Below, piece after piece: positions 30,260-64,000 of a DNA stretch of 64,000 bases. Made by a program: the position numbers and the translations under genes. A model generated the notes under the pieces. That model searched no databases. It had not been told where the DNA came from and worked only from the letters and a program-made list of their open reading frames with translations. The number at the start of each line of letters is the position of its first letter. Position 1 is the first letter of the stretch. Source of the DNA: Bolinopsis microptera (Eukaryota > Ctenophora > Tentaculata > Lobata > Bolinopsidae); the NCBI RefSeq assembly GCF_026151205.1, contig NC_087082.1, positions 12,743,865 to 12,807,864 of the forward strand. The letters are read 5' to 3'.

Positions 30260-33200
30260 CTAATCGGCCAAGATCGACACAATAGAACTTTTGTGACCTA
30301 TTTTGTCTCCTGTAAGTGAAAGTTTAAGAAGTTTGATATACCCCTGCCAGATCGGCATGTCCCCTGCCTGAAATATTTTGCTAATGTACCATTTGGCAAC
30401 AATATTAAAATAATTTATAATTTGTGAATTGTGATTACAAACTATAAAATTAATTTTATTGGGGTCTTTGTAATTTCTATCGATTTTCCTTTTTATAAAG
30501 TCTTCAAGTATTGTGATGAAGCTATTTGTGTGGATACAATGGAGATAGATATGAGGAATTGTTTCTAAATATGTGTTACACAGGCTACACATGGGAGTAT
30601 CTGTAACAATTTTCATTTTGTGTCTCATGTATCTACACGTCGTGATCCTCATTAAAAGTTTGTACTGAAATTGAATCAACTTAAAATTTTTAGATACTAA
30701 GAAAAATAGGTTGCTTAGAACGACCACCCATTCTATTGGTTGATTATTTAGGTCAATAACCCATTGACGTAATGGGGACAGCTCGTTTGGGCAGATAGAG
30801 TCGTACATTTTATCCCGAATTTTACTTCCCTTCACCTGTCCAGTTACAGAATGTAAAAATTTAAGTTTTATATTTGAGTCAACAAACTCAATATTCCTTG
30901 AGTTAATAGTGGGGCAGTTATATCTCCGTATCCCCATGATAATGTTACAGTACTCAGTTTTGGAAATAGTATTTGGAGACAACTCCCACTTGTTAATGAA
31001 CATATCGTAGTTAAGGATTGTACTTTGGTCTATAGAAAGGAAATCTGAGATGTAGAATATTCCCTTATCAATCAGATGATTGTTCCAAAGTTTGGCCCCG
31101 ATGTCGGTTATTGCTTGGTTGTACCACACGCAGTGATCAATAGAACCCAAGGCTGCATTTACCGAACTTATCTTCCACTCAGTGTAACAATTAAGGACGT
31201 CTTGAGTAAAATGGCAGTTGGTTTTAGCGAGACCGTTTTCTACGGAGATGGTGATATGGTCAGGAAATTTCAGTTGCATAATCATAATATCTTTCCAAGT
31301 GTGGTGAAAGGAATTGTTTAGTAGCTTGGATATGAGGCTGGTTTTAAGACCTATAATAAAATCAGATAAATAAAAAAGTCCCAGGCCTCCATGTTCCTTA
31401 TTTCGGGTAATAATCTCACGTTTTACTTCATCGCGTTTGCAACCCCAAAGAAAATGGAAAATAGCCGTGTCAAAGATTCTGATAAAGGAAGCATCCGGTC
31501 GAGGGAGAGGAGAAACAAGGTATGTTAATTGGGAAAAGAGAAGGGTTTTAATGACTGTGCATTTACCCATAAGCGTCAAATCCCTCTTGCTCCATCGGTT
31601 TATCCAAGACTGAACCTTAATCAATTTATCATTATAATTACTGTTGACAATATCCATCAGTGAGCCATCGTTCATATAAACTATACCCAAAGCGGTGAAG
31701 TTGTTTGTTATAAAATCATAGCCGTATAAACTTTGAAGGGATTCTAGTAGTTGTATTAAGACGAGCTCGACCTAAAGGAATACATCTAGTTTTGTCGATG
31801 TTAGCTTTACACCCCGAGCACTGAGCAAAAGTTCTGAGTTCTGTCATAACCGCCTCTACACTTTCAATTGAAGCTTTTAGAAACAGATCAGTGTCGTCTG
31901 CAAAGAGACTCTGTAAGATTTCCACACCTGATATGTTAAGACCCCTGATATTAGGATTAATCTGAATTTTATTCGAGAAAGTTTGGGCCACAATAAGAAA
32001 GAGAATAGGAGACAGTGGACTACCCTGGTGAAGATCTCTTAGAATATAAATAGGCGAGCTTAAAAACCCATTAATATTGGCGTAGCTAAAGCATGCTTGA
32101 AAAGCCACTTTAATCAGTTTAATAATGTATTCGCTGAAACCCAATTTTTCAAGAGTACTGAAGACAAAGTTATGTTCTACCGAATCAAAACACTTTTCAA
32201 AATCAATCTGTAATAGGAGGCCCTCTTGTTCCGTGTCGTTGTTAAATGATTCCAGAACCATTGACATGAGAATAAGATTATCTGCTGTACTCCTGCCCGC
32301 TTGAAAGCCTAACTGGGTATTGCTGATTATGCTAGGGATAGCCTTCATAATCCTATTTTTAGCTATATGTGTGAAGATTTTATAGTCAATATTAAGCAGA
32401 GTAATAGGTCTCCAATTCTTTATGTAATTAAGTTCCACTGGGCTTTTTGGCTTGGGAATAAGGGTAAGAATACCTATTCTCTGCGAGGCGACAAGCATCC
32501 CCTGTTAATAGATTCTAAATAGGAGTTATACATGATCTGCCTGATATCCATCCAAAGAGTTTTGTAAAATTCAGCAGAAAGCCCGTCCCAACCTGGAGAT
32601 TTATTGTTGGTTAGCTTATTGACAATAGCATCCATTTCGTGCAACGTGATAGGCCCCTCCAAAGTTTCCGTAATTTCTTGTGGGATTTGCTTTAAATCGC
32701 TGCTGGTTACATAATTATCTATCTCAGTGGGAGATGGGTTAGTTGAGTTATACAGGTTCTGATAAAAGTTAACCACGTGACTAGAGATGTTTTCCTGGTC
32801 CGTGAGGTCATTGCCTTCGATGTCTATCAGTTTACTAATACTTTTTTTCTTGCCGTTTGATTTTTCCAGTCCAAAAAAATATTTAGTCGAGCGCTCCCCC
32901 TCCTCTGTCCACTGCACACGTGATCTAGTAATTGCACCTCTCACCTCCTGATCTATAATATGATTTAAATCTAATTCTGCTTCAAATAATTTCTTTTGTA
33001 GTATCGTACAGTTTGTTAGGTTCAAATCTTTTTTACAATCTTCAATATCTTTTTTTAACTTTTCTTTTTTCACTGTGATTTCTTTTTTCTTCTTTTTACC
33101 AAAAGTCATTGCGAACTGTTTTATCTTGATTTTTATAACGTCCCAAAGACCCCCGTAAGAATCAAAGCTATCTTCTTTAGTATTGTCAATGATTTTCTTT

Positions 33201-34083
33201 ATTTCGTTAATAAAATTTTGATCTAGGAGATCTGAGTTGTTAATTTTCCAATATCCTTTTCCGTGTGCAATAGTAGAGCCCTGGAGGGATAGCGAGATGT
33301 AGCTGTGATCAGATTTATAGCCATGACTTATTCTGTATCACATACAGGTAGGTTGACTAGGCTATCTTGGATCAAGAAAAAATCTAATCTAGACTGAGTT
33401 TTGTACTTTTTGTTAAAATGAGTAAAAACCCGTGCCTCAGCACCTCTGTTAAGACGGAAAATATCACTAAACCCATAGTCGCTAATGCAATCATTAATGA
33501 ATTTCTGGCAGCGACTATTTGCATGGGTGGCGGACCCCACCTGCTTATCCAACATGTTGTTCAGAACTGTATTCCAGTCTCCCACAAAAATTATTTGATC
33601 ATCTCGTGAACGACTGAGAGTTTCTAAAAATATGTTTTCAAGAAATGACACATCGTCATTATTTGGGCAGTATACATTCACCAAACACAATTTGAGAGAG
33701 TCGTACTCTATTTCTACAAGGGTCGCGCGACCTTGGCTGATGCTACGATGGTTAATAATAGTGAGATTCGAAGCATCAGGTTTAACAAGTAGGGCGATAC
33801 CGGTTGAGTTTGAAGTACCATGGTTAAAGATTATCTCCCCGTCCCAAGAATTTTTCCACTCTCTCTCAACTTGAGGAGTTGAATGAGTTTCTTGAAGACA
33901 AATAATTTTCTCAGGTTTATTTTTTAACCAGTTTAGGACAAGATTACGTTTAATCGGGTTTCCCATACCATTGCAGTTGAAAGAACCGATTTTTGGGCAT
34001 GCCAACCCACTATTGCTGTTATTTTGCGGAGTCATTGTTAATCTGAAAAATGCCCCATCCTTCCTTGGTGTAGTTCTTAACAC
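30260..34083 (-). pseudogene. LINE ORF2: AP endonuclease + reverse transcriptase, three frameshifts
   Basis: Endonuclease (34083-33328) shows SFNCNGMGNP, CLQETHS, FVGDWNTVL; its last motif SDHSYI lies past a frameshift near 33330. The linker continues 33315-32480, another frameshift follows near 32490, and the RT domain spans 32498-31716 with NWRPITLLNIDYKI, LGFQAGRSTADN, LQIDFEKCFDSVEH and LFADDTDLFL. A third frameshift near 31735 leads to the C-terminal part (31690-30260) with HFLWGCKRDE and a Cys-rich motif CSLCNTYLETIPHIYLHC, the usual zinc-knuckle-like end. Motifs match the L1/Tx1 group. With three frameshifts it is unlikely to be active. Confidence 0.92.
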
Positions 34084-41692: not shown

Positions 41693-43621
41693 ATGACTAT
41701 GCTACATGTAAAACTTATTCTTGGCCTGTTGCTTTTATTGATGATTGCTGAAGCCGGTAAAAAGTTTTGCGAGAAGAAGGCACTAGTGTTTGAAAAGTGT
41801 CTCAAGAAAGGCTACCAAGCAAAAATCTTCAAGAAATGCACAACAAAGCCAACAGCTAAGACTATAAAAAGGAGAACGGCAAAAAATTGTTCTAAAGCTG
41901 AAAAGAAAATATCCAAAAAGTGTAAATCATTCGAGTGTGACAATACAGATGATTTGACTGATGAGATAACAGAATGGATACCTATTTTCAATTCAACATC
42001 GAACATTGTTGGACCCTTCCACTCCCCAAACTTCCCAGAATTTAGGTTGAAGTTCACTCAAAACAAAGATCTGACAAAACAAGCCAAAGGTTACTACCAA
42101 GGGGTAAACGTCAATTTATACAATGGCGAAGGGTTAAGACTTGGTTTTACAAACTTCATGCTAATCGCCAATGTGACTGAAGAGGATGAAGAAGTCCAAT
42201 TTAAGGCACGTAAACGGTTATATTTCGACGGACCCTCATGGGATGAAGACAGCAATTGCTTCCAGTCTCTTGAGTTGTACTATCTGAAAGATTTCAACTT
42301 TGAGATGGTAACATCAGTTGGATCAGAGGAAATGTTCCAATTCACAACACCGAACGGAGAGAGATACAGTGAGGAAATGGGAGACTGCAGCAGCTACTCT
42401 GCTTGGCAGGAAATGTTGAAAGAAGCTCAGAGTGCGGACATGGGGATACTTAGTTGGCAAAGGGATCTGGCTGACTATTTTACCACTGAATACAACGTCA
42501 GGGAGCTTACAGATGACTCGACTGAAGACAAAACAGAGTGGACACCTATCTTCAACTCAACATCGAACATGGTTGGACCCTTCCACTCTCCCAACTTCCC
42601 CAAGTTTAGCTTGAAGTTCACTCAACACAAAGATCTAATAAAAGCATTGGAAAGTTGTAACCTGCATGTGAGCATCAATCTATACAGCGATAAAGGAACA
42701 AGACTTGGTTATACACACTTCATAATTTACGCCAATTTAATGGCTGAAGAAGTCAACTTCACGGCTTACAAACGTTTTTATTTTGACGGACTATTGTCTG
42801 CAACCCAAATTTGCTCACAGTATGTTGAGTTGTACTATCTGAAAGATTTCAACTTTGAGATGGTAACATCAGTTGGATCAGAGGAAATGTTCCAATTCAC
42901 AACACCGAACGGAGAGAGATACAGTGAGGAAATGGGAGACTGCAGCAGCTACTCTGCTTGGCAGGAAATGTTGAAAGAAGCTCAGAGTGCGGACATGGGG
43001 ATACTTAGTTGGCAAAGGGACCTGGCTGACTATTTTACCACTGAATACAAAATCAGGGAGCTTACAGATGACTCGACTGAAGACAAAACAGAGTGGACAC
43101 CTATCTTCAACTCAACATCGAACATGGTTGGACCCTTCCACTCTCCCAACTTCCCCAAGTTTAGCTTGAAGTTCACTCAACACAAAGATCTAATAAAAGC
43201 ATTGGAAAGTTGTAACCTGCATGTGAGCATCAATCTATACAGCGATAAAGGAACAAGACTTGGTTATACACACTTCATAATTTACGCCAATTTAATGGCT
43301 GAAGAAGTCAACTTCACGGCTTACAAACGTTTTTATTTTGACGGACCATTGTCTGCAACCCACATTTGCTCACAGTATGTTGAGTTGTACTATCTGAAAG
43401 ATTTCAACTTTGAGATGGTAACATCAGTTGGATCAGAGGAAATGTTCCAATTCACAACACCGAACGGAGAGAGATACAGTGAGGAAATGGGAAACTGCAG
43501 CAGCTACTCTGCTTGGCAGGAAATGTTGAAAGAAGCTCAGAGTGCGGACATGGGGATACTTAGTTGGCAAAGGGACCTGGCTGACTATTTTACCACTGAA
43601 TACAAAATCAGGGAGTTTTGA
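41693..43621 (+). CDS. Secreted three-repeat protein with basic Cys-rich N terminus, unknown family
   Basis: 642 residues. Signal peptide (LILGLLLLLMIAEAG), then a Lys/Cys-rich segment of about 60 residues with six cysteines (FCEKK..KCLKKG..KCTTK..NCSKA..KKCKSFEC). Three tandem units of 185 residues (555 bp) follow, starting with TEW-PIFNSTSN at about residues 94, 281 and 466. Units 2 and 3 are nearly identical even at DNA level. Unit 1 is diverged in its first half but identical to the others in its second half (YYLKDFNFEMVTSVGSEEMF onward). Each unit has NSTSN, an N-glycosylation site, and few cysteines. One coding exon; an acceptor-like CATAG lies 4 nt before the ATG. AATAAA at 43761. I do not recognise the domain; extracellular matrix, venom or mucus protein are all possible. 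Confidence 0.85.
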   Translation: MTMLHVKLILGLLLLLMIAEAGKKFCEKKALVFEKCLKKGYQAKIFKKCTTKPTAKTIKRRTAKNCSKAEKKISKKCKSFECDNTDDLTDEITEWIPIFNSTSNIVGPFHSPNFPEFRLKFTQNKDLTKQAKGYYQGVNVNLYNGEGLRLGFTNFMLIANVTEEDEEVQFKARKRLYFDGPSWDEDSNCFQSLELYYLKDFNFEMVTSVGSEEMFQFTTPNGERYSEEMGDCSSYSAWQEMLKEAQSADMGILSWQRDLADYFTTEYNVRELTDDSTEDKTEWTPIFNSTSNMVGPFHSPNFPKFSLKFTQHKDLIKALESCNLHVSINLYSDKGTRLGYTHFIIYANLMAEEVNFTAYKRFYFDGLLSATQICSQYVELYYLKDFNFEMVTSVGSEEMFQFTTPNGERYSEEMGDCSSYSAWQEMLKEAQSADMGILSWQRDLADYFTTEYKIRELTDDSTEDKTEWTPIFNSTSNMVGPFHSPNFPKFSLKFTQHKDLIKALESCNLHVSINLYSDKGTRLGYTHFIIYANLMAEEVNFTAYKRFYFDGPLSATHICSQYVELYYLKDFNFEMVTSVGSEEMFQFTTPNGERYSEEMGNCSSYSAWQEMLKEAQSADMGILSWQRDLADYFTTEYKIREF

Positions 43622-43760
43622 GTAAAGTTAATGTTCAATGTTGGCTATCATGGAATTGTTTAATGTGCAATATTCATTTATTTCCTTAGGTAAATGAGTA
43701 TACAATATTAGAAATATTATAAATGTTGATGTAAAAATTTGTCAACAATTCATTTGCTCG

Positions 43761-44814: not shown

Positions 44815-45373
44815 TCACAGTGCTGGCAAGCACGAGCGTTGTCTTTATTGGGGGTATACTATGTACCCCCTTTACTATAAAACCCCCTTTACTATAAAAC
44901 CCCCTTTACTATAAAACCCCCTTTACTATTATACCCCCTTTGGTACACGTTACAAGCCTCTTTCGTGCACGCGAAGCGTGCACTCCGGCCGGAGGCGGCG
45001 GCCGAAGGCCGCCGTCTCCGGCAGGAGTTTTTCAGGCATTAAGACTCATCGGAAGTCGTTCAGCAGATTTATTTTTAGTTCAAAACATTCTAATTTGATG
45101 TCAAATATGACAAAAATACAAAATAGTTATGTGAAGATTTTTAAGAATTTGCATAAAATACGCGCCAGCACTGTTATACGAAATTCGGTAAAAAACCCTA
45201 AATCGCCATATTCAGGTGCCTTAAAAACCACGTTAAAATTGAGTTAGAAATCTGAAACTTTGCAGGGCGTCTAGACGTTGACCAAATCGACTGCAAAAAA
45301 AGTTTCAAGTTTCAGGAGCATCGGGAAATGGGTTTTCTAGAACCCCTGTTTTACGACAGATTGTCGTGATACA
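44815..45373 (+). mobile_element. Helitron-like element copy D, 5' part
   Basis: Starts TCACAGTGCTGGCAAGC after host A. Contains the CCCCCTTTACTAT minisatellite (about 44865-44942) and the two GC hairpins (44965-44983, 44989-45021). Interrupted by copy B at 45373/45374. Confidence 0.8.
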
Positions 45374-47152
45374 TCACAATGCTGGCAAGCATTACCGTCG
45401 CCCTTATATTCACAACACTATTTACCCCCTATACGATTATATCCCCTTTATTGTTTTCCAGGCATTAAGACTCATCGAAAGTAGTTCAGCAGGTACATTT
45501 AAGTTCAAAACATTCTAATTCAATGTTGAAGATGACAGGAATAAAAAATAGTTATATGGAGGTTTTTAAGAAATTTGCGCAAAATACGCGCCAGCATGTT
45601 ATACGAAATTAGGTAAAAAACCCAAAATCGCCATATTCAGGTGCCTTAAAAACCATGTTAAAATTGAGTTAGAGATCTGAAACTTTGCAGGGCGTCTAGA
45701 CCTTGTCCAAATCGACTGTAAAAAAAATTTCATGTTTCAGGAGTATCGGGAAGTGGGTTTTCTGGAACCCCTGTTTTACAACAGATTGTCGTGAAGATAT
45801 ATATATATGTATAGACGCTTTTTGCAGTCAATTGTAGCCTACATTTAAGTGTCCGTAGATTCAAAAGTATAAACGATACAGTCATCTCGAACCACAGGTT
45901 TTAAAGATAATTGTTTAAGCTTTAGTTTACATTGTATTGAAAAATAATTTAACGTCATCATCATCACTTGATGACGTCATCAAGTTAAGTGTTTTTAAAA
46001 CTTGACTTTTGACAAAGTAACAACTTTTTAAATCGATTTTACACTATTAAGGAGTAATTTTATTCAAAATCTGAGGACATTTTTATCTTAGATAATTGTT
46101 CAAGCATTCCGAAAATCTACCGGAATAGTTTCCTACCTTGCTCCTTCATAAAGATATTTGCTGTTGAAGTTAGTGCTTTTTTGAAGAATAATTTTATAAA
46201 AACACAAAAGTTGTGAATTAGTATTCTCTGGTGTTGGGCCATCCCTTGGGTTGTGGAGCTCAATTTTGCTTCTTAAAGGTGTAAATTGTGTTATAGGCTA
46301 GTTTTAAAGTTAAAAATCGAAAAGTTGCACACGTGGGGACACGCCCAAATTCATTTAAAATAGCTAAAATCGCTAAAAATTTTGATTTTCACGATTTTTA
46401 TCAACTTTGGAGTCCCGTTGTGATCCAAGTTCTTTTTGAAATCTTCTGAAACTTTGCATGCTTATCAAACTATATATTAAATACCACTATGCAAAAATGT
46501 ACGGTGATTCAATATTGTATGCGCACGCGACGTCCGCTCAAAGTTTGCACGTGCGAAAGGTGAGAAATTTGCTCATTCGTGATTTCGAATATATTCTGCT
46601 TTCCACGATATTTAAATGGCATTATATATGAATTTAATGCCAACTTGAATGAGTAAAAAGTGCCATATTCAGTCGGTTATCGACAGAAATACCTAACTAA
46701 ACACAAGGAAACGTTTTCAAAGGCAGAATTTCGAAATCGTCGAAATTACCTCCTTGTTAATGAAGTTTCGACTAGCTGTGTAAATTATCCTGACATTATA
46801 TTTTTATAATCAAAAAGAGATGATATTTGACCAAAACCCATAATCATGGGTAGAGTGTACCGCTGCCAGTGTCTCTCTTTTCCAAACAAAAGGAAATGAT
46901 ATTAATTTGAGGAACAGTCCGCTAATGCAAATTGATACCGAGAATGAAATCGGTCGCTCGCTTTTTCCATTCGATCACGGCTTACGAATTGTAATAATGC
47001 TTATTGATTTGAAAAAGCGAGCGACCGATTTCATTCTCGGTATCAATTTGCATTAGCGGACTGTTCCTCAAATTAATATCATTTCCTTTTGTTTGGAAAA
47101 GAGAGACACTGGCAGCGGTACACTCTACCCATGATTATGGGTTTTGGTCAAA
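45374..47152 (+). mobile_element. Helitron-like element copy B (nested in D), loop in 'flip' orientation
   Basis: 1,779 bp, TCACAATGCTGGCAAGC...GGTTTTGGTCAAA, inserted between A and T of copy D with no duplication. It is identical by eye to copy C (49882-51660, constant offset 4508) apart from the terminal loop. The 3' end is an inverted repeat of about 142 bp: left arm about 46825-46966, loop 46967-47011, right arm 47012-47152. No ORF. Confidence 0.9.
46825..47152. repeat. 3' terminal palindrome of copy B
   Basis: Arms of about 142 bp pair perfectly or nearly so, from TTTGACCAAAACCC to GGGTTTTGGTCAAA. The asymmetric loop of 45 nt starts CCATTCGATCACGGC and ends ATTGATTTG. Confidence 0.95.
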
Positions 47153-48130
47153 TATATACATATATATATATATTCAGGGATAGACGCTTTGCCAGTGAAT
47201 TATAGGCTACATTCAGATGTCTTTAGATTCGTACCTATAAAAGATACAGGCATTTCCGACCACAGGTCTTAAAGATAATCGTTTACACAATAGTTTACGT
47301 TATATTAAAAAATTATTTGACGTCATTATCACCCTTCGATGACGTCATCAATTTAAGCATTTTTGAAACTTTATTTTTGACAAAGTAACAACTTTTCAAG
47401 TAGATTTTACAGCATAAAGAAGTTATTTTATTGAAAATTTGAGGCCATATTGAAGTTAGATAATTGTTTGAGCATTCTGAAAATCTACCGGAAAGTTTGC
47501 CTAACTTGCTCCTTCATAAAGATATTCGTCATTGAAGTTAGTGCTTTTTTGAAGAATTATTTCATAAAAACGTTAATTTTGCGATTTAGTATTCTCTGGT
47601 GTTGAGCCATCCCTTGGGTTGTGAAGCTCAATTTTGCTTTCTAATGGTCTAAATTGTGTCATAGGCTAGTTTTAAAGTTGAAAATCAAAAAGTTGCACAC
47701 GTGAGGACACGCCCAAATTTATGGAAAATTGCTAAAATCACCGAAAATTGCTATTTTCACGATTTTTATCAGCTTTAGAGTCCTGTTGTGATTCGAGTTC
47801 TTCCTAAAATTTTCTGAAACTTTGCAAGCTTATTAAACTATATATAAAATACGAAAATGAAAAATTTTACGGTGATTCAATGTTGGATGCGCATGCAACG
47901 TCTGCTCAAAGTTTGCACGTATAAAAGGTGAGAACTTTACTCATTCTTGATTTCAATTAGTTTCTGCTTTAACACGACAGTTAAATGTTATGTATGGATG
48001 CAATACCAACTTGATTGAGTATAAAATTGCATATCCAGTCAGTGATCAAAAATATGGTGACACAAGGAAATGTTTTAAAAGGTAAAATTTCAAAATCGTA
48101 GAAATTACCTCGCTATTCAATAAAAGTTTC
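47153..48130 (+). mobile_element. Helitron-like element copy D, 3' part
   Basis: Continues D after the nested copy B, from the AT-rich TATATACATATAT and TTCAGGGATAGACGC to about 48130. It parallels the A/B/C body with about 10-15% divergence but lacks the terminal palindrome. Confidence 0.75.
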
Positions 48131-48981
48131 TCAATATTACAAATATAACTTAAATACGACATTAGAAAATCTGAAGCACATGTTACGTCCGCTTAAAGTA
48201 CGCACGTGAGAAACAGGGGTATTACAACCTTCGTTTTCAGAAGTTATAGGAGTGACATTTCCTAGGCAATGGAGGGCTTAGAATCCATAATATTTATGCT
48301 TGCAGTCCCTAGTCCGTAAAAATTAAAGTCTGTTTGAATTAGCTTTTCAAATAGTATCCACGGTCATGGTGAGGCTGGATTGATTCCCAGCGTGTTTAAT
48401 TCACAAACGCCTATATCTAGCAGTAAACACTATACGGATACCTGCGAAAATTTAATTTATTATCAATGGTCGGCTACCATGCTATGAAAGGTTAATAATC
48501 TTTATCGCCCGTTATACTTTACAATTTTCGCTGACGTCAATGCACGGTGCACACCTGCACCGTGCTGATAACGAAGCACAAGGCTGCTAGATCATATTAT
48601 ATAAAAACCGAACATTTTCCTAGATGTTCCTTCGAATTGCCTTTGAAACCCTACTATTTTAATTTCCGTGTTGAAGTTTTGAGACTCCTGTGAAAAATAT
48701 GTTGAAGGCGGCGCCTCTGTTCAAATCGGTGGGTTTAATTTGAACGGTAGTATCTGCATCGCTTTACTTGAATCGATTCCTTGCTTTGACTGTAACATGA
48801 TTTTATGTGATAGCTCTTTGTATTTACATTTAGAAATAACAGCCGATTTTTCTCCGTGCATTTAGTGCAATATTTGTAAGATGTTGTCTATTGTCGTTCA
48901 TAATAGTTGAGATATCAGTATCAAGATTGGACGATTCTATAACCTATAATCTATGCAGTTAATATCAATAAAGTTGCCAAC
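48131..48981. other. Upstream region of the Helitron gene
   Basis: Mostly unremarkable AT-rich DNA. Contains one strong palindrome, GCACGGTGCA-CACC-TGCACCGTGC, at about 48552-48575. The promoter or 5' end of the Helitron may lie here; no boundary can be assigned. Confidence 0.4.
48552..48575. repeat. Perfect hairpin, 10-bp stem
   Basis: Stem GCACGGTGCA / TGCACCGTGC with a 4-nt CACC loop, just after TGACGTCAA. Possible transposon-end hairpin or cruciform. Confidence 0.8.
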
Positions 48982-51900
48982 ATGTCAATACTTAAAGATC
49001 AGCTTATTAATGCTTGCTTAGATCGAATCGAAATACAGGTATGTTCAATGAAACTATAATAACAGTATCACGATTGAATTAAAGCTTATATTGCGAGATA
49101 TCCATTTTTACAGAAGTTCCATAGAGACTCCATCATATTATATTCTTATTGTACATATATTGTGAATTCGAGATATGTTTGATTGGCAAAAAGCAGCAGT
49201 GTAAATAAAAATACTCATTTCTGATTTCAGAGAGTTGCACACTTCATTGCAAATTGCACTAATGGCGAATCCTGTACCTGCCTTCTCTGTTTAGTGCAGA
49301 TTCCAAAGGTGACAGGCTGGGTGAGTTACACTACTGATATTAAACAATGTTTTAAACTTTACCTGTAGTAAATTAAATTAAAAATCTTCGTTCTGAGGAT
49401 TCTCATAAAATTCCTAAGTTGGAAAAGCCACTTAATTCCTGAATATTTGTTACAGTTATCATAATGTGTTCATCAGTCAAATCAGGCATGAAGGCTCAAA
49501 ATTGACACTTGCTTAATTATAGGGGCAATTGGAGAGCGAAGTTGAGGAGATGCTAATTGCAAATCGTGATATCGAGTTCCCGGAACTGTGTGGTGCAGCT
49601 ATCTCTGCACATGGATCAAAGCAACAAGTTTGTAATCGTGTTTTTTGCGCAGCTGTCTACATGAAAATTTGGTTCAATTTACGAAGATAATAAGCATCGG
49701 ACTCGGAACTTGACACAGACAAATTTTAAATCCGTATTTGCCAGGAACTCTGGAGTGAAGTCGTCACAAAATTACCAAGTAATTTTGACGAATCGGCACC
49801 CTCTAAGGATGCTCGCAAAACTGAAAATGTTGAAAAATCTGATAGCGCTAGCAGCAGTAGGACTATCAATGTTAGTTTTAATCACAATGCTGGCAAGCAT
49901 TACCGTCGCCCTTATATTCACAACACTATTTACCCCCTATACGATTATATCCCCTTTATTGTTTTCCAGGCATTAAGACTCATCGAAAGTAGTTCAGCAG
50001 GTACATTTAAGTTCAAAACATTCTAATTCAATGTTGAAGATGACAGGAATAAAAAATAGTTATATGGAGGTTTTTAAGAAATTTGCGCAAAATACGCGCC
50101 AGCATGTTATACGAAATTAGGTAAAAAACCCAAAATCGCCATATTCAGGTGCCTTAAAAACCATGTTAAAATTGAGTTAGAGATCTGAAACTTTGCAGGG
50201 CGTCTAGACCTTGTCCAAATCGACTGTAAAAAAAATTTCATGTTTCAGGAGTATCGGGAAGTGGGTTTTCTGGAACCCCTGTTTTACAACAGATTGTCGT
50301 GAAGATATATATATATGTATAGACGCTTTTTGCAGTCAATTGTAGCCTACATTTAAGTGTCCGTAGATTCAAAAGTATAAACGATACAGTCATCTCGAAC
50401 CACAGGTTTTAAAGATAATTGTTTAAGCTTTAGTTTACATTGTATTGAAAAATAATTTAACGTCATCATCATCACTTGATGACGTCATCAAGTTAAGTGT
50501 TTTTAAAACTTGACTTTTGACAAAGTAACAACTTTTTAAATCGATTTTACACTATTAAGGAGTAATTTTATTCAAAATCTGAGGACATTTTTATCTTAGA
50601 TAATTGTTCAAGCATTCCGAAAATCTACCGGAATAGTTTCCTACCTTGCTCCTTCATAAAGATATTTGCTGTTGAAGTTAGTGCTTTTTTGAAGAATAAT
50701 TTTATAAAAACACAAAAGTTGTGAATTAGTATTCTCTGGTGTTGGGCCATCCCTTGGGTTGTGGAGCTCAATTTTGCTTCTTAAAGGTGTAAATTGTGTT
50801 ATAGGCTAGTTTTAAAGTTAAAAATCGAAAAGTTGCACACGTGGGGACACGCCCAAATTCATTTAAAATAGCTAAAATCGCTAAAAATTTTGATTTTCAC
50901 GATTTTTATCAACTTTGGAGTCCCGTTGTGATCCAAGTTCTTTTTGAAATCTTCTGAAACTTTGCATGCTTATCAAACTATATATTAAATACCACTATGC
51001 AAAAATGTACGGTGATTCAATATTGTATGCGCACGCGACGTCCGCTCAAAGTTTGCACGTGCGAAAGGTGAGAAATTTGCTCATTCGTGATTTCGAATAT
51101 ATTCTGCTTTCCACGATATTTAAATGGCATTATATATGAATTTAATGCCAACTTGAATGAGTAAAAAGTGCCATATTCAGTCGGTTATCGACAGAAATAC
51201 CTAACTAAACACAAGGAAACGTTTTCAAAGGCAGAATTTCGAAATCGTCGAAATTACCTCCTTGTTAATGAAGTTTCGACTAGCTGTGTAAATTATCCTG
51301 ACATTATATTTTTATAATCAAAAAGAGATGATATTTGACCAAAACCCATAATCATGGGTAGAGTGTACCGCTGCCAGTGTCTCTCTTTTCCAAACAAAAG
51401 GAAATGATATTAATTTGAGGAACAGTCCGCTAATGCAAATTGATACCGAGAATGAAATCGGTCGCTCGCTTTTTCAAATCAATAAGCATTATTACAATTC
51501 GTAAGCCGTGATCGAATGGAAAAAGCGAGCGACCGATTTCATTCTCGGTATCAATTTGCATTAGCGGACTGTTCCTCAAATTAATATCATTTCCTTTTGT
51601 TTGGAAAAGAGAGACACTGGCAGCGGTACACTCTACCCATGATTATGGGTTTTGGTCAAATTGAACTATCCTTATTAATTTTATACCTATTCTATTTATT
51701 AAACTAGAATTATAATGTGTGTTTTTAAACACGTAGATTACGGTGAAATTTGATCAAACTCAAAACCCAATATAACTCCTATTTCAGACGAACCACCGTC
51801 AATATAATAAGAAATTCTGTTGGAGGAAGACTGCCTGCCTACCTGCCTAGGTCGATCCAGATGAAATCTGGAACGAGTTTCGTGTCAACGCTTCTCTCCA

Positions 51901-54900
51901 TTTATCCCTATCACACATGAGTAAACGCAGCTGGTCAGGTTCCATTCCAGTGTCTTCAAGTAGGACGTCCGGGAAGGTCTTATGTGGTCGTCCTCGATAA
52001 CGCTGGCCATAGGATGGTTGCCAGAAAAGGAGTTGTTGAGCAGGTTGGTCCTGTAGACGGTAGACATGTCCTGCAAAACGAAGTCTTCGTGTCTTTATAG
52101 TATCTGTCACCGATGGAATCTTTCCGTAAAGAACGGAGTTAGGTGTATGTGATTTCCATGAGATACCAAAGACCCTTCGTAGCATTCTAGTATAAACACC
52201 GTCTAGTGCTCTGATATCAGCCTTTTTAAGAGTCCAGGTTTCTGCACCATACAGCAGAACAGGTTCTACTGCAGTTCGAAAAATCTTAGTCTTGATCTTC
52301 CTGGACATATTAGATTTCCAAAAAGCATCTAGACTCTGTAAAGCTTTCCATGCGAGGCCTTTCCTGACATTGATGTCTCTGCTTGTTGAGGCTATAAAGG
52401 ATCCCAGGTACTTAAAGTCATGAACTTCTTCTAAAGGGTTGCCGTTAATAAAGACTCTATCGTCTGAGTTGACAGGTCGCGGGATGTTATAGGACATGTA
52501 TTTGGTCTTTCCGATGTTAATAAGGAGACCATAACGGGCTGCTATGTCAGAAATGCAGACTAAGAGGAGTCAAAATCGTAAATATCACAAAAATTCCTGT
52601 TTCACGATGGTGAGTTAGTAAAATTTTGGCATATTTTACTTGAGGACTCGGCTTCTTGTATTATCAATATCATGCTTGCTTCGCTTAAAATAAGATTATG
52701 AATAATGGCAATGTCACCAGCTCTCAAGTTTAAGTCTTAATAGTGAACATTGTTCATGAAGCCGTTCAGTTAAGAAATATTCTTTTTGAGGGTTCCGGTG
52801 GATACAAGCGTAGGACTAAAGTTTGGTAGTTTGTTATAAAAGTCATATTGAATATTCGCGTGTACCGTACCACTGGCAATACTACAAAATTACAGGTTGA
52901 TAAGTCATGTGACGGGAATGTTAAACACGTTCAAGAGTCAATGCCATTCAAGATGGACACATGCAATCAATTTGAAGTACTAAATGTGTCGTTTGCATGC
53001 TCACAAAAAACTGTTAGTTAATTTTGTTATTTGTCTTTCCGTTTCTGACGTGCATATTGCAATTTTATATCTAAAATTTAAATAATGATTATTATTATAT
53101 TATCATACTATATGTTTTGATATATAAAAACGTTTCAATTAGTTCACATCTACATTTCATAACATGCTACAAATAAGTTATTATATTGTCTACTTTTGCA
53201 GGAAAAGAATAATCCAAACGAAGAGGCTGATTATATTTCAGATAAGCAAGAATCCGGAAATCTAGTCAAGGGTAAATTAGTTTTCATTATAATAACATGT
53301 TAATAGATTAAGAAGCCGTGTCGTCGAAAGTTGCATTGTGAAAGCCACTGAATCTTCTTATAAAATGTATCTAATTTAATTAACTCAGGGTTGAGCAAGA
53401 GGTTTGTTAGGAAGACGAGGGTTCAACGAAACAGAAAGAAACAAGAAAGACAAAAAGTTCGTTAAAACAGTTTTGTACTTTTAGGAACGTTCGTTTGTGT
53501 AACAAGTTGTATGATAATAAACTACTTCTAAAGATAGACTTGAGTTAATATACATATATCTAAAAATTGAAATAGATGTGTTAATAACCGCAATCGAAAT
53601 TCAATCGATTCGTTTTGAGTATTAAGAAAATAAATATTTTTAGGCTTTAGACCGGAAAGAAGCGTGGTTGGGAAAACAGATTCTTCAGCAGATTGAAACA
53701 ATCAAAATAATACGGCAAGCTATTCTTACTGAAGAGGAAAAGAAAAACAAAGAGAGGACCGCAAGAAGAGGACATGAAGTAAGTCCGCAAAATTTTGCAT
53801 TACTTTTAACGATTCCATTAGAATAAAAACGTCGCTATTTCCATCCAGTTTATTATGAAAAAGTTTAAAATATCACGCAAGTGTAAAATCTCCGTTCTTT
53901 GTTTATTTTTAATTCACTGTGTGCTTCTTATGATTCTAACCTTCAGTGCCTTAACACCGTGAACATGAGTGGAGGAGGACCCGACAGCAAATTAACAGAC
54001 AAGAAAAGCTTCAAGAGAAATTCAAAGAAAAAACGGTTAGGAAGGAAACTCAAAAAATGTAACGCTCAGAGACCTATGCAGAGAGGTAAATAAAATTTAT
54101 TAAAAATTGTACAGTTGATTGATCAATATTCGAATACTGATAGTTGGATAATATCCGATTGGAAGAGGCAAGGACGAGTGAGACAGGAAGTTAGAAACTT
54201 CGTGATATCATGGATCGCTTAGGTTCCACCAGGATATGGTAGTCCTCATAATTCTGCTAAAAAATTACTAAAATAGTAAAATTGAACATGACACCAATTA
54301 TCAATAAACAAGCAGCTATAGCCTATAGTATAGTACGACTAAAGAAATAGGAAATAAATTTAAGTAAAATTCCATTTTGTTGTCAAGAGTCCTGATAAAT
54401 AATTTATGCGATAAAACGCATCTTTCTTCGCGTCATAGCCACTTTCGATCGCTTTACAACGACCGTATAAAATCATATAACTTTTGCTACTATACTGTGC
54501 TACTTTTTTAATGATCTGTTTTACATACATAATCGTTGTACCAGTATTGCAGTATATTATATTTCAGATTCTATCGAAGGAGATGTATCCTTGATAGAGA
54601 GTCAGCAGGAAGACCCGTCTTCAGAAAAAGAAAGCAGAACACAAGAGTCTAGGGTAGATGACATTGTTAGTGAGGATAAGAGTGATACTATACTTTATAT
54701 CGATGGGGAAAAACATGCTATTGAAAGTGAAAAAGAGCCGGGTTTAATGAGTAAACTAAAACGTACTTTGAGGAACTTCCGTTATAGGAAATCACAAGGT
54801 GGTCAGCAAACAATACGCAAAGTTAAAGATCGTTACAGGAACAAAGACCACGCCAAAGAGTTAAATAAAAAAGACGTCCTTAAATATCAGTCGGGGTCGC

Positions 54901-57900
54901 ATGGTCATGATGTACTGAGTGGATACCGTTCTTCTCCTGGTGGCAGGTCTTCACTCAAAGAAGCAGCCAGTCGATATCAATCATCTCTCGCTGGTAAATC
55001 TTCACTCAAAGAAGCAGCCAGTCGATATCAATCATCTCTCGCTGGTAAATCCTCACTCAAAGAAGCAACCAGTCGATATGAATCATCTCTCGCTGGAAAA
55101 TCCTCACGCAAAGAAGCATCCAGTCGATATCATTCATCTCTCGCTGGCAAATCCTCACTCAAAGAAGCAGCCAGTCGATATGAATCATCTCTCGCTGGCA
55201 AATCCTCACGCAAAGAAGCATCCAGTAAGTATAAATCAGCCCCTGAGTTCAAGAAGAAAAGAAAGGATTATGAAGATTCGGAGAAGGAGAAAATTTCACA
55301 ATCGAGAAGGACTAGATATCGTCGAAACAGACTGTTTGAAGAATTTGAGGAAGAATTCGAAGACGATATCGATTATTGCTTGACAAGGAAAGATGCCATG
55401 AAACAGATCAGAAAGCACACGACACGTAATGGTAAAAAACTACGATTCCTGCTACACAAGGAGAGGATCATGGGATTTAGGAAAAGTGTTTTCCTCCCCT
55501 ATATATCCTATATTTCAAGAAAAGGCACCTTCAGAACGAAAACTTTCATGAGATCGAAAAGCAAGTTAATATGGAAAAATGCTGTCAACCGAGTGATGAT
55601 CGAGAATTTGAATGATCGCCTTGCGAATGACATCATTAACGAATGGTACCCATCTCTCAATTTTAAACGGAACAACCAGTATAAGAAGAAGTTTATTGCA
55701 TCTCAGCTCCAGAGGAGGATCTTAAACAGCCGGGATCTGTGGATAAAAGTTTTGTATGGCCGTTGTCATAAGTTGAACTTGACATCAGAACAGCTCATTA
55801 ACGAGGAAAAACTGGATTTATCTGAAGAGAAGCGTTTTGACAGCATCCTTGGCTACAAATGTCACAGAAAAGGTGTGGAACCTCGCTTTCCTCTCTACAG
55901 CTTTCGCAATGGTGAGCAATTCAAGTTTCGGTATAACAAGAGTTCAAAGAAGAGCAGAGAGGAATTGAGAAAAAGTGAAATATGTACTAAAGACTGCATT
56001 CCGGCTGGCTATTTTGAAGCCGATCGCTTCAAAGATTATTTGACAAGATGCAGAAATGTAGAAGTGAGAAATAGCAGAAAGTTCGTACAAGCGTCTAACA
56101 AATGTGGAAATTTGAAAGCCAATGACATGTACACCTTAAAAGTTGGACACCGCAACCATCCTGAATGCTGTTTAAGGAGTGAAGCAAAGAACAAGTGCTC
56201 CAGTGACCTTGTTCTGCTGAGAAAATTGAGCGTCCACTACAAAAACGCTCGAACTCTCTATAAGGCTGTGAATGACATGAAAACAGCAGATCAGTTTGTG
56301 TCCGACTTAGATACTGCAACTGCAACAGGAGATATCGAATATCTACTAAAACTACTACAATACGAACCTCCTATTGCAGAAAAAACATTCGAAGTTGAGA
56401 GACCGCAACAAGTCATCAATGAGCAGTACATGGAAGAAAACTTTCCTGAACAGTACCTAAAATTTCTAACTACAATCAACGCTAACCATACAGTGCATTG
56501 CATTTCTTGTCGAAGGCTTACGGAGGATGACTCTAAAAAGTGCAAAACCATAACATCTCGATGGAAGAAAGTGAACATCGTCAACTCCGAGTACATGCTT
56601 CTCCTCCGCTATCTGCAATCCGACGAATGGCTTAGAATGGGAGGTGTATATGTTGACACGTTAGTAGGTAAAAGAATTTGCAACTATTGTCACAATAAAA
56701 TGGAGAAAGGGGAAGTTCCAAGAATATCGGTTAGGAACGGAATGAACGAAGGGATCGTTCCCATTGAAATAGCTGATTTGTCCCAGTTTGAATGTATGTT
56801 CATACGGCAAATTTCAATGTTCCAAACATTTTTGAAGCTAGGACCAAGCGTTGGAAATCGGCCAAATAATGAGAAAATGTCTGCAGTAAAAGGATTTAGT
56901 GTCCACATACCGGTCCCAATACAGGTGAACGCTAAGCAATTAGCTGGAGAAATGCCTGGACTGTTGAATCCAAAGACTTTCATCGTCCTTCATGGTCTCC
57001 CGAATAAAGACAGGAAGGTTTGGCAAACTTTGATAAACGTTGATAAAGTTATCACTGCACTAAAATGGCTCGTAAAGAATAACCCTCTCTATGAAAAAAT
57101 TGAAGTTCCAACAAAGGGTGAGATTCTTGATATGATGTGTGAGGTCGATAGCGATATTGAAGATGGAGAGGGAGCGATTCCAACTGACTTCTTTGATAGC
57201 TTTGATTACTCCGGTGAGAACAGTAAAAAAGCTAAAGATCTTTCCGATATATCCTCATCTTTATCTAGCGCTGAGTCAGTTATCAAACCGTCTTCTAAGA
57301 GAGCCCGCCATAAGAACAGTATCACATCTGAAGACATTGACATGTCATTACCTGAAATGCTACCTACTGAAAATAAAGAAGATCCTGCCGATTTAAATGA
57401 CGAATATCTTGAGCGTTTATGTGAACTTGACATGAGCAGCAACGACGATGATCTAGCAAGTAATGGCTCTTTATTTGGACTTAGTAGTACATCGACTAAA
57501 TCAGCTATATCATCGAACAATTCTTCTAGTATGGAGATCAGTTTTGATGAAGTTCCATGTAAATCAGGCGATAGTGAAATTAGTTTCGACGAGAGTAAAT
57601 GCAGAGATAAAGGCGGTGATGGGCATTTAAACCCGTTAAAGATCGTGACCAGTGTCGATTTTAAGGACATGGAATTGGGCATCGAAGATGAAGATCCATC
57701 TTTTAAGAATATATGGAAGTTTTCTGCAACAGTCAGTGACGAAGAAATGGTCCGAATAAAAGAGATGTCTAGTTGTAGCAGTAGGAGAAAAGTTATTGCG
57801 CTGAAATCTGTGGTGCATATGGCTAGGATGCTAAACAGTAACGGTTCTCTTTGTGTTCGTTGCTATCAAGATGTCAGAAATTATAGAGATAGAATCATTC

Positions 57901-60900
57901 AACTATTACGATTGGGAAACACCACATTAGGCTACCAGCTGCTGAACATCCAGGCAATCCTTACAGCCTTTTCAAAGATGAGGACGGCTCTGCTTGCAGA
58001 AGGTGACTCAATTAAAATCAACAAATGCGCCTGCTGTGTTCAAAATAAAATCTCCAACCATCCCCTCCGAAAGAAAGCTAGGCGGAACACGAAAGGAAGC
58101 GTGAAAGCGGTTTCGAATAGTCATCAACTGAGGGCAAGCTGGGGAGCCAATTTCTTTTTCAGTACAAAAGTGAAAACTCTTTCTCTATTAGATTCCATGA
58201 AAGAGGAGCGGCAGATGTGTGATGGATGCTACGAGGAAATCGAAGAAAAGTCAAGCAAAGGAATATCACACTTTTCCAAACCCTCGCGATCGTTGACGTT
58301 GAAAATTCGAAAACGGTCGGCAGCTTTGTATGACGCCCACTGTGAAGTGCAGGGACTATATGCAAAAGCTAATGACAATGAAGAACGATGCGATGGTATA
58401 TGCGTAAAGTGTGATCAGCAAATTACCTTCTGCCAAGATATCCTCGATAAGAGGTTCGAGGAATTGGAATTGGCTCTAGAGGATATGAGAAGTTGTGCTG
58501 GGGCCCATGAAGTAATAGGTTTGAAGAATAAAGACGAGACTAAGCTTTGTACGGAAACATTCCCCAAACCCCCAGAAATTCCCGCTGAAGAAAGGGCCCA
58601 TTTTAGATCAAAAAATATGGTCTATAGTAAAAATATACTTGACCATATCGGCACTGCTTTAGTCAAGTCCCTTCATTGCAGACATTGCAAAAGCCATTTG
58701 AAAGCAACTATTGCAGCCTTTAAAAGACTCATGAAATGCAAATCACCTTCACCTGAGAACCAACCAGTTAATCTTGAGGACTGTGATATCAGTGTTCTCC
58801 GCAGTTTAGACGTTTTCTACTCTGAGCGACTATCAAACTCACTTTTACATGGGCGCTGCTTTAAGTGCGAGAAATCACTTGACTTGATTGGAGGAGGAAC
58901 AGAGAGTAGTGACGATTCCTCTGATATGCCATCAGATTCAGGTTCATCTGCAAAGATTTCTTCAGCAGCAGAGGATTATTCAGATCCAAATATTTTCTTT
59001 GAGGACGATAAATCAGATGATGGAGATAAACAGGGGCCTAAGAAAATGATGGAAGAGATGACTGAAGAAGACTATAAGAACTTGATCGAAGAATTTACCG
59101 TCACTGGTATGGATATCCTTGACGACAATCCTGAGTTAATGGATGATCTATACAGGTTGTTGAGATTAGATGATGATCCTGTTGATCTGGCAGACACAAA
59201 GTTGGACCTTCTTGCTTTTCCTGAAATATTTAGTTGGGGTGTTGGCGGAAGGAGGGGTTTTAGAGGTGAAGAAGCAAAACCACTGCAGTATGAAAAGTCT
59301 AGGCTTATGTCCAGCAATGGGCCTACTCGAAGGAATATACAGCATCTGTTTCACTTAGCAGGGGAGAATGAGCGTAGAAAAGTTCGATCAAGTATCTTCG
59401 CTACACTGAAGAATGTACAAGGAATGGGGAACTTAGATGCGGCGTCTTTACTCAACAAAATCAAAATGAAAGATCCAGCCTTATTGAAAAGGATAAACAA
59501 AGTATTAAGATTGGTTCCAAATACACAAGCTTACTGGGAAAGTACGCGTGCAAAACTGAAGGCACAAATAGAAAAGTTTGGCCCACCTACGTTTTTCGCC
59601 ACTTTCAGCCCTAGTGAGTACGACTGGGAGGATTTACTTCAACACCTAAAAGATGCCAACAGCGACATACCTAATGTGGATGACCTGTCTCCTTCTGCAT
59701 TACTGAACAAAGACCCTGTATTAACATCCACTTACATCCACAAAAGATTCGATGCACTTTTGAAGTTCATTATTGATGCCGAACCTTTAGGAAAAGTTAA
59801 GTCACATTTTGTGAGACATGAATATCAGTCTCGAGGTACTGTTCACTTTCACACATTTTTATGGATTGATAAAAGCCCCCTGATTGGCAAAAGTTCTGAC
59901 GCGGAGGTCGCAAGCTTTATTCAAAAACACATCACGTGCAAACTCCCTGACCCAGTGAATGAGGCAACCTTATCCGATGTAGTGGGAAGCTACCAAGATC
60001 ATTCATGCCGATCGTATTGCTTGAGGGCATTCAAAAAGTCTCATAATTCATCAAAGGCAAAGAACGAATCAGCTTCTTCAACTAAGTCAAAAACAAAAGT
60101 TGCATGCAGATTTGGGTTCCCAAGGCCAAAGTCGAAGAAATTCATTCTGCATGATGTTTTGTCGAGTGTTATTGGACGGAAAACTAAACAGATGAAACAG
60201 AGACTGTACGATTTGCCGAGAACTGAAGAAGAAAGAAGAATTAATGATTATAATCCAATTTTATCGTTTCTGTGGAAAGGTAATATGGACATTCAATTCC
60301 TTGCTGAAGATAGTTACTCGATCACACAATATGTTACAAAGTACATCACCAAGGGGGAGACAAGTGTTATCGACATAGATGAAGCGGACCTGAAAGATCT
60401 GTCTAAAACATCTTATCAGAATCTCTCCAAGTTTGCGTTCCAGCTACTTAAATCCCGCGAGATGGGGGCACATGAAGCAGCTGATAGGATCCTTCAAAAC
60501 AGTGGTGAACTCTGGAGATCTTCAGAAACGTTTGTGTGGCTACCAACAACCACTCCAGACCGACGGACTAGGGTTTTGAGAAGCTTAAATGAGTTACAAA
60601 ACCAGAAACCTGACAGCACCAATGTATTTTTTGATGATTGGGTACACGTTTTTTATCCGAATAGACCTCGAACAAAGGATTTCGAAAACATGTCACTGTA
60701 TGATTTCGTCTCCAGGTACGAGAAAGTGATTGGAAAACCTGAAAAGTTTGAAAAAGAAGAGAAAGAAAAGTACATCAAGATCAAGGATGAAAGTGGAAAA
60801 TACATACGAACTCTTCAACGGAGAAAAAAAGAACCTGTTATTTACCATCACAACTATTCAGTAAAAACTGATCCTGAGCTGTTCTATTACAGCATGTTAG

Positions 60901-61340
60901 CTCTTTATAAGCCATGGCGAAATGAAGCAGACATCGCTAGCTCTCACGACAAATACAGCGATGCGTTTTTTGATGCTGTCGAGGACTTTTCACAGCTCAA
61001 GGAAATGTCTAGCAAGAAGATCAATATTGAAAAGGCTAGAGAGAAGATGGAAAAGGAAGCAGAAGCAAAAATGGCAGCATCTGGGACAGCAACTCCTTCA
61101 CAGGCTGAGGATGACATCGATCTCGGAAATCAAGGTCTTAGATCCGGCCTACGAGATTTTGAGATAGTCAACGATAGAAGCGAAATAAAGTCTCATGGGG
61201 AACTTGAATCGTTCGTCAAAACATTGAATGAAGATCAAAAAAGAGTATACATCAAAGTCACTAAACATATTGAGCATATGGTTCGACATAGGGACAAAGA
61301 ATGCACGGGCAAGGAGTGCAGTCGACCTCTCAATTTATAA
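48982..61340 (+). CDS. Helitron Rep protein, multi-exon 5' part and HUH domain (helicase split off)
   Basis: Exons with matching phases: 48982-49038 (ATG), 49231-49320, 49523-49627, 49745-49870, possibly 52559-52609, then 53202-53271, 53389-53456, 53644-53778, 53947-54085 and 54568-61340. The long last exon has a 17-residue repeat (SSLAGKSSLKEAASRYQ, six copies, 54930-55235). Many CxxC pairs follow (CISC, CNYC, CVRC, CACC, CDGC, CVKC, CRHC, CFKC) separated by acidic Ser-rich linkers. The Helitron_like_N/Rep region begins with FFATFSPSEYDW (about codon 1664 counted from 54591). HUH is VHFHTFLW (about 1751) and the two-tyrosine motif is QYVTKYITK (about 1914). The Rep nicks and joins ssDNA in rolling-circle transposition. 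TAA at 61338 is created by the insertion at 61340; coding resumes at 62284. Introns have taken in copy C and a LINE fragment. Confidence 0.85.
49882..51660 (+). mobile_element. Helitron-like element copy C, loop in 'flop' orientation
   Basis: 1,779 bp, same ends and body as copy B. Inserted between A and T about 11 nt downstream of the donor of the Helitron exon 49745-49870 (AAT|GTTAGT). The 45-nt loop at 51475-51519 is the exact reverse complement of the loop of copy B. Confidence 0.9.
51333..51660. repeat. 3' terminal palindrome of copy C
   Basis: Same arms as in copy B. Loop starts CAAATCAATAAGCATTATTA and ends CGTGATCGAATGG, the inverse of B. Confidence 0.95.
51830..52558 (-). pseudogene. 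LINE reverse transcriptase C-terminal fragment in Helitron intron
   Basis: Continuous minus-strand reading from GLLINIGKTKYM through FKYLGSFIASTSRDI, KIKTKIFRTAVEPVLLYGAE, TRMLRRVFG and RRLRFAGHVYR to a stop at 51847. RTE/CR1-like pattern, distinct from the family at 19818 and 38250. 5' truncated at about 52558. Confidence 0.85.
54930..55235 (+). repeat. Coding minisatellite, 51 bp x 6
   Basis: In-frame repeat in the Helitron ORF encoding SSLAGKSSLKEAASRYQ-like units. Units differ at a few codons (L/R, A/T/S, Q/E/H). Confidence 0.93.
61333..61339. repeat. Target duplication of inserted element, left
   Basis: ATTTATA, repeated at 62282-62288. Removing one copy and the insert restores the phase across Rep and helicase. 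Confidence 0.75.
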
Positions 61341-62060: not shown

Positions 62061-62283
62061 ATCGCGCGTCTAACTGTTCTACTAGTACTATTATCGAGTT
62101 CTAATCAGCAGTATCATTGATTATTGTAAGTCGGAGAATTGAATGATAAACATCAGTTACGACTAAAAAGCGGGCCGGGTTTATACAAATTTCCGGGGCG
62201 GGATGATATCACCTTGAGATGTTTATCTAACAGCGGGCCGGGCTGAGTGATAATATGATCCCGCGTCGAAATCCCGGAGATAT

Positions 62284-64000
62284 TTATATGTTAGTGGATT
62301 TGGTGGAACAGGAAAATCTTATTTGATAAAAGCCCTTCAAGGATATCTTTGGGTTCAGAAAAACCTGTTTGACGAATCCACTGATATTGCCTTAACGGCA
62401 CCAACGGGGCTTGCTGCAGCTAATGTGGGAGGGCAAACACTGCATAGTCTCTTCAGTTTGCCAGTTGAGCATGGAGAAAAACTGCCGAAATACGCCGCCC
62501 TCAAGAAGAATTCGATGCAGCAAACAAGAACTGTACTGAAAGATCTAGCTTTGCTCGTAATTGATGAGATCAGCATGGTGTCAGCAGAGATGATGATGTC
62601 AATCAATTTGAGATTACAGGAGATTTTCGGTGCCGATGAGTTGTTTGGCGGTAAAACAGTAATTGTTTTCGGTGATCTACTGCAGTTGCCTCCTGTCCAT
62701 GGAAAACGGCCATTTCAGGATTTGTCCGGGGATGATGTTCACAACTTAACAGGCGGTCTTAGAATCCCTAGCCACTTGTGGGGGAACTTCGAGTACGATG
62801 AACTCACCATCAATCAGCGTCAAAAAGGAGAGGAGAATGAAAAATGGAGTTCTTTACTAGGCAGGATTCGTATTGGCCGCCAAAGTCAAGATGATATCAA
62901 CATTCTTCAAGAGCGACTTATCCCAGTCAGACAATGCGAATTACCTAATCAACACTTAGATCAGATCGTTGATTACTACCTCAATTTGCAAAACCAGTTC
63001 CCTACCACTGTTTGTCTATTGCCAAAAAGGAACATGATGGATTCTTTTAATATGACAGTCATGAACAAACTGTTCCCCAAGGCAATAAAGGTTGAGGCAG
63101 ATGATGACGTTGACGGTAGAACAAATGCTGACAAAAAACGGGCATTAGATGCAGTTCTGAAGATTGATAAATTGGGTGACTCTCGAAATACGGCTGACTT
63201 GGAAAAGTGTCTTTTCTTGAGCGAGGGTGTCCGAATAATGCTAAGAAAGAATATTGATACAGCGAAAGGGCTCGTAAATGGTGCTATGGGAATAGTAACA
63301 AAAATTGTATCTTTTGAGGAACTTTTAGTGGAATTTGATGGGATTGACGGCGTTGTTACAATAACGAGGGATACTCGAAAAGTTAAATTGTTCGAAGATT
63401 CCTACCTCCATCGTCGACAGTTTCCTATCAGTACCGGATACGCCCTTACCATCCACAAAGCGCAGGGCATGTCTCTGAGTCACGTGTTTTGCGACTTAGG
63501 AAGTATGATCTTTGCAACTGGTCAGATTTATGTTGCTTTGAGCAGGTGCAAGACTCTTGACGGACTTCATTTAGTCAACTTTGACGAATCACGGATAACT
63601 GTTGACCGTCTGGCTATTAATGAGTATGTAAGACTCAAGAGTAAACCTATCATAGCAGCAGGGATCACTCTGAAGACTGATGACCAGCCAGAATCAAACA
63701 AAAAGGGCAAGAAAAGACAGACGAAGAAGAAGAATGAGAGGATATGGTATGAAACCGACGCTGCAAAGAAGGCTAAAGCGACTGTGAATGATACCTTAAA
63801 GAATGACAAAAAGGATCAATCAAAAGCACGCAAGAAAAAGCAGCCGGTTAAACCAAAGAAAACGAAGCCAACTACTGAGAGGAACTCAAGTTTAACAGCA
63901 GCTAATATCAGTACACACATCAATCAGATCTACGTCGGAATTCCTGCTGAGTATATTCCGACTACTGATATTGTTAGTGGTGCAGAAATGCTGTTAGCAT
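62284..64000 (+). CDS. Helitron Pif1-type helicase (runs off window end)
   Basis: Open from 62284 to the window end with no stop; continues the Rep frame if the 942-bp insert is removed. Walker A is VSGFGGTGKSYLI, followed by TAPTGLAAANVGGQTLHSLF, Walker B LLVIDEISMVS, VFGDLLQLPPV, INQRQ, then the superfamily-1 motifs TGYALTIHKAQGMSLSHV and YVALSRCKTLDGL. This is the 5'-3' DNA helicase that unwinds the nicked strand in rolling-circle transposition. After the helicase there is a Lys-rich tail (KKGKKRQTKKKNER and similar). The 3' end lies beyond the window. Confidence 0.92.

Follow-up and report, generated by a model that had tools for sequence, protein, structure and literature searches.

In a window of 64,000 nucleotides (nt) from the ctenophore Bolinopsis microptera (the whole stretch of DNA analysed, part of contig NC_087082.1), two copies of a repeated element, here called B and C, are best explained as young members of a non-autonomous Helitron-like family whose 3' end is a perfect inverted repeat with 142-nt arms and a 45-nt spacer. 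The spacer, or loop, lies in opposite orientations in the two copies. The best explanation is probably that the arms occasionally undergo template switching or recombination with each other and that the orientation which results is then inherited (we put this at roughly 0.7). The evidence consists of an exact inversion, arms which evolve in concert, a half-converted loop elsewhere in the genome, and an orientation which is both inherited and recurrent. The element starts with a head of about 420 base pairs (bp), which a short AT microsatellite separates from a unit of about 1,030 bp; the terminal palindrome follows. The relevant features of the two copies are:

45374–47152, plus strand: copy B, complete (TCACAATG...GGTCAAA), with its loop in the B orientation; it has inserted into an older element, X, within the AT microsatellite of the latter
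46825–46966, plus strand: left arm of B, 142 nt
46967–47011, plus strand: loop of B, 45 nt
47012–47153, minus strand: right arm of B, 142 nt, a perfect inverted copy; it ends on the T that follows the element
49882–51660, plus strand: copy C, the same as B save for the inverted loop
51333–51474, plus strand: left arm of C, 142 nt
51475–51519, minus strand: loop of C, exact reverse complement of the B loop
51520–51661, minus strand: right arm of C, 142 nt; it likewise ends on the T that follows the element

Compared base by base, B and C differ at 27 positions, all within 46968–47010. Outside the loop they are identical from 45373 to 47153, that is, to one base beyond the element on each side (1,781 bp in total), and in both palindromes perfect 142-nt arms flank the loop. 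The sequence-only reading of this DNA had claimed that the two copies are alike over body and arms and that their 45-nt loops are exact reverse complements; both statements are borne out, with no mismatch outside the loop. Because the 45-nt reverse complement is exact, a chance origin of the inversion seen in the genome assembly is excluded. As single-stranded DNA the C palindrome folds at -185.8 kcal/mol, where 100 shuffled sequences average -32.8 (z -37).

The genome searched comprises 264.65 megabases (Mb). A first search with the B palindrome as query, in which 40 of 2,799 candidates were scored, favours the B orientation and did not list copy C of the window. From the searched loci and the window, 62 palindromes were read with both arms. 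Loops of 45 nt were present in 43 of them, 42 being B-oriented and one, that of window copy C, C-oriented. The six palindromes with 47-nt loops were all B-oriented, and the 13 with long loops (78 to 234 nt) all C-oriented; these two classes entered the sample by neighbourhood and not through their orientation. Genome-wide counts were made with exact patterns anchored in the body and read in both orientations, and the pattern controls gave 0 in all four counts. A 17-mer at the loop edge typical of the B45 subfamily occurs in 104 B-oriented and 6 C-oriented copies (6/110 inverted), and a 14-mer at the other end of the loop, missing from the long-loop and 47-nt copies read, in 131 and 39, respectively. 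All six C-oriented 17-mer copies fall among these 39; five of the other 33 were read (loci L043–L047) and 28 were not. L043 (C6:8707775) fits both orientations of the 14-mer since its loop ends copy each other. The loop edge typical of a subfamily termed D was found in B orientation 13 times genome-wide, by pattern only. A count of loop orientations had been proposed on the basis of the window; both do occur, yet for the B45 edge, at 104 to 6, they are far from 50:50. At C9:6214876–6216395 a B-oriented and a C-oriented palindrome lie about 1.3 kilobases (kb) apart on the same strand.

Loop orientation follows ancestry and is mostly inherited. In a maximum-likelihood tree of the unit's 3' 420 bp for 66 copies (47 B-oriented and 19 C-oriented; many forks are open, and the midpoint root serves the drawing only) 49 rows, 47 B and 2 C, form a starred clade, and the remaining 17 rows, the long-loop and D copies, are all C. 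L044–L047 and C10:13459490 had been put into the tree for their C orientation. At least three changes of orientation are forced by starred branches; shuffled labels give a mean of 14.8, and none of 500 shuffles gave as low a figure. The lone C rows inside the B clade are window copy C and C10:13459490. With the root outside the 49-row clade this amounts to one change to B and two back to C. Judged from this tree, loop inversion appears to be recurrent and, provided that the root lies outside the B clade, reversible. C10:13459490 (its body known from L038, its orientation through the pattern alone) possesses a B45 body, agreeing with window B and C at 980 of 989 aligned positions and with the B-oriented L012 at 981 of 990. 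It is separate from window C because it has body differences of its own, while window C and B differ nowhere but in the loop. Two other flipped copies, C1:17928024 and C11:19569777, carry GAGTGAACCG in the arm, which suggests a further inversion event; on C5, two B-oriented copies share this variant.

The arms evolve in concert, subject to the caveats on age and sample given below. No arm-to-arm mismatch was found in 51 of the 62 palindromes, one in six, two in two and three in three, and the left arms of the 47-nt and long-loop classes differ from the arm of B at 4 to 16 of about 141 sites. With the terminal branches of the unit as a proxy for age, ten long-loop copies carry 5 arm mismatches against about 40.5 expected (an upper figure), five 47-nt copies 0 against 13, and 42 B45 copies 6 against 58, the outlier L017 supplying more than one third of this last expectation. 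Private changes in the 13 long-loop copies stand in both arms in 10 cases and in one arm in 11 (four of these are gap columns); in the six 47-nt copies the figures are 5 and 0, three of the five being a single 3-nt insertion in L024. The argument is based on the long-loop group because the B45 group is biased by the search to intact palindromes. A comparison of arm mutations, likewise proposed in the sequence-only reading, thus finds the arms homogenized.

The loop of L043 (C6:8707765–8708110) measures only 15 nt: in place of the right part of the old loop there is now a reverse-complemented copy of the left part, CCATTCGATCACGGC. The arms of L043 therefore extend 15 nt further inward. Such a half-converted loop is what would be left by copying from one arm past its end.

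Taken together with the arms, this lends support to the earlier suggestion of recombination between the 142-bp arms, in a general form which includes template switching. The arms would be kept identical by host DNA synthesis or by recombination between them, and the same arm-to-arm synthesis or recombination would now and then invert the spacer; polymerase template switching at the hairpin, sister-strand invasion, and gene conversion with crossover are candidate routes. The inverted loop would then be passed to daughter copies. We infer both that template switching or recombination is the agent and that it acts mostly on the chromosomal copy and not on a transposition intermediate.

There are precedents for both parts of this scheme. 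In the yeast examples described in PMC8604942, template switching between inverted repeats homogenizes the arms and inverts the spacer, and the likeness includes identical arms, exact inversion of the spacer, recurrence and reversibility. Those examples have 11- and 16-bp arms, small spacers and single genes, whereas here the arms are 142 nt, the loops 45 to 234 nt, and the element mobile and multicopy. Minute inversions in hairpin loops are likewise described for chloroplast DNA in portions of PMC2903610 and PMC3123225, where both orientations occur between inverted arms, also within species; these, however, concern organelle DNA with no mobile element. In the open library, to which the literature search was confined, nothing was found on flip/flop palindromes with terminal resolution in transposons, nor anything joining the Helitron terminal hairpin, gene conversion and concerted evolution.

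Several points weigh against arm-to-arm copying or recombination. Most copies in hand were chosen for their likeness to the B palindrome, and subfamily D may have a higher share of inverted loops than B45. Terminal branches overstate age if the source copies varied, for which reason 40.5 is to be taken as an upper figure, and three rows with mismatches of 3, 3 and 0 were omitted from the expectation owing to short unit coverage. Among the 43 B45 copies only one private arm change is in both arms, while six are in one. Changes shared by both arms could come from the source copy, and action on chromosomal copies is therefore unproven. The loop edge GATCGAATGG is common to D and B45 and absent in the 47-nt class, contrary to the body tree. 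The histories of loop and body are thus not wholly the same, whether because copies exchanged sequence or because several changes took place at the base. Lastly, recurrent nuclear microinversions in birds are, in an extract of PMC3123225, not tied to stem-loops.

Parvovirus terminal palindromes occur in two inverted forms, flip and flop, and the sequence-only reading had likened B and C to them. The resemblance lies in a terminal palindrome with two inverted forms; the difference is that here these are not half and half and are mostly inherited. A parvovirus-like mechanism predicts frequent, near-random orientation, and a flip at every round of transposition is rejected by the 104 B to 6 C copies and by the tree. 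Regular flipping is thus not borne out: the 13 long-loop copies read are all C, the six 47-nt copies read all B, and orientation follows the body tree. Inversions that are seldom seen and for the most part inherited fit better with the arms being copied from, or recombining with, each other. One might still envisage, on the model of rolling-hairpin replication in parvoviruses, that the terminal hairpin forms in a rolling-circle single-stranded intermediate and is then copied and resolved, either by a HUH Rep or by repair; the arms would thereby become homogenized and the loop would at times be turned. We regard this as unlikely. Coding regions for Helitron_like_N and PIF1 do lie in the same window, and the bodies of B and C are identical with their loops opposite. 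However, orientation is inherited in nearly all B45-type copies, so that flipping is no regular step of transposition, and only a rare, leaky version would fit. Slightly more doubtful again, in our view, is that members of the family go through a single-stranded stage with a hairpin end, which Rep or repair copies and resolves inefficiently; if true, a eukaryotic rolling-circle transposon would have a rolling-hairpin step.

Identical copies 4.5 kb apart which end in long hairpins are a hard case for assembly, and the inverted loops might be assembly or sequencing artefacts. We think this improbable, given that orientation is clade-consistent over many loci, that the second flipped copy (C10:13459490) has body differences of its own, and that the partly converted loop of L043 is not easily made by random misassembly. 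Least probable of all, and indeed very much so, is that a B-type copy received a C-oriented loop from another subfamily through conversion, with no inversion in place. Possible donors are L044–L047, C-oriented copies of the older subfamily D whose arms differ from those of B near the loop, and the partly different histories of loop and body would agree with such an exchange. Yet the loop of window C is the letter-for-letter reverse complement of that of B, including the AATAATGC variant (found in 4 of the 43 loops of 45 nt read) and the CAAATC edge, whereas CCAATC and CTTTAT are what the four D copies examined show.

As to the class of the element, its 5' start is TCAC in all 48 heads read, preceded by A in 46, G in one and T in one. 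The 62 palindromes read end in GGTCAAA (53) or GGTAAAA (9) and are invariably followed by T. Three head-to-tail junctions of the form GGT[CA]AAA|TCAC were found, and neither B nor C contains an open reading frame of at least 120 amino acids. With canonical Helitrons (Helitron1) the family shares the 5' TC, an A|T insertion site (from the flanks of the copies) and a 3' hairpin. It differs in having no CTRR end and a palindrome with 142-nt arms which reaches the very end; the portions of PMC4067079 and PMC5148889 dealing with canonical termini give a CTRR end with a 16–20-nt palindrome about 11 bp inside. Its central microsatellite and 3' palindrome recall the Helentron/HINE/DINE-1 group as outlined in parts of PMC4067079 and PMC7492417, from which the family differs by its lack of subterminal inverted repeats, an A|T instead of a T|T site, and a far longer palindrome. 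A comparison of the 80-nt head with the reverse complement of the last 400 nt revealed no subterminal inverted repeats (score 14; median of 200 shuffles, 16). Membership in the Helentrons is rejected on this ground and because A, not T, precedes 46 of the 48 heads. The earlier label "Helitron-like" stands in so far as the TC start and A|T site are concerned, and lacks the CTRR end; with subterminal inverted repeats absent as well, the family is therefore Helitron-like only, neither a canonical Helitron nor a Helentron. Locus L010 (C12:1783302–1786881) is a short tandem array of the hairpin unit: two consecutive blocks each consist of unit and palindrome but no head, and a further palindrome is adjacent to them; its units are about 95% identical to that of B.

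The window also contains a diverged relative, copy A, the remains of element X, and Helitron coding frames:

27418–29530, minus strand: copy A, with 141-nt arms perfect within the copy and a 234-nt loop in C orientation
44815–45373 (also delimited as 44815–45369), plus strand: head of older element X, interrupted by B
47154–48117 (also delimited as 47149–48117), plus strand: unit part of element X beyond B, about 82% identity
54471–61337, plus strand: open frame, stop to stop, of 2,289 amino acids with a Helitron_like_N domain (2.4e-22), possibly of an autonomous Helitron
62254–64000, plus strand: open frame of at least 582 amino acids with a PIF1 helicase domain (4.9e-28), running past the window end

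The arm of copy A differs from that of B at 11 of 141 sites. The claim that A shows the C orientation where it can be compared holds for the comparable part, ACAATTCGTAAGCCGTG, on the right side of its loop; A as a carrier of the same 45-nt loop is rejected, its own loop being 234 nt. Copy B splits element X (44815–48117) at the AT microsatellite. At several other loci, too, a full copy has a head part of an older element on one side and a unit part on the other, which gives the impression that the microsatellite of the family is a frequent landing site for its own members. The Helitron_like_N and PIF1 frames lie downstream of B and C on the same strand and are neighbours only; element X may represent the 5' end of these coding regions. 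A DUF6570 domain is also present in them (54471–61337 / 62254–64000), and 51-bp tandem repeats lie at 54867–55274 inside the first frame. Elsewhere, a 300-nt repeat in three copies with 555-nt spacing (42256–43665) falls mostly inside a 642-amino-acid open frame (41693–43621) for which no Pfam match was obtained. Pieces resembling a non-long-terminal-repeat retrotransposon are found on the minus strand at 31719–34083, with a reverse transcriptase frame at 31719–32498 and an endonuclease frame at 33331–34083.

This family shows that a Helitron-like element can lack the CTRR end and yet have a long 3' hairpin that is well maintained. About 110 copies with the same loop edge, in a genome of 265 Mb, preserve a natural record of what has happened at one long hairpin, so that inversion and arm conversion can be counted against the body tree. 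The family thereby offers a way to ask whether homogenization of the hairpin occurs on the chromosome or during transposition.

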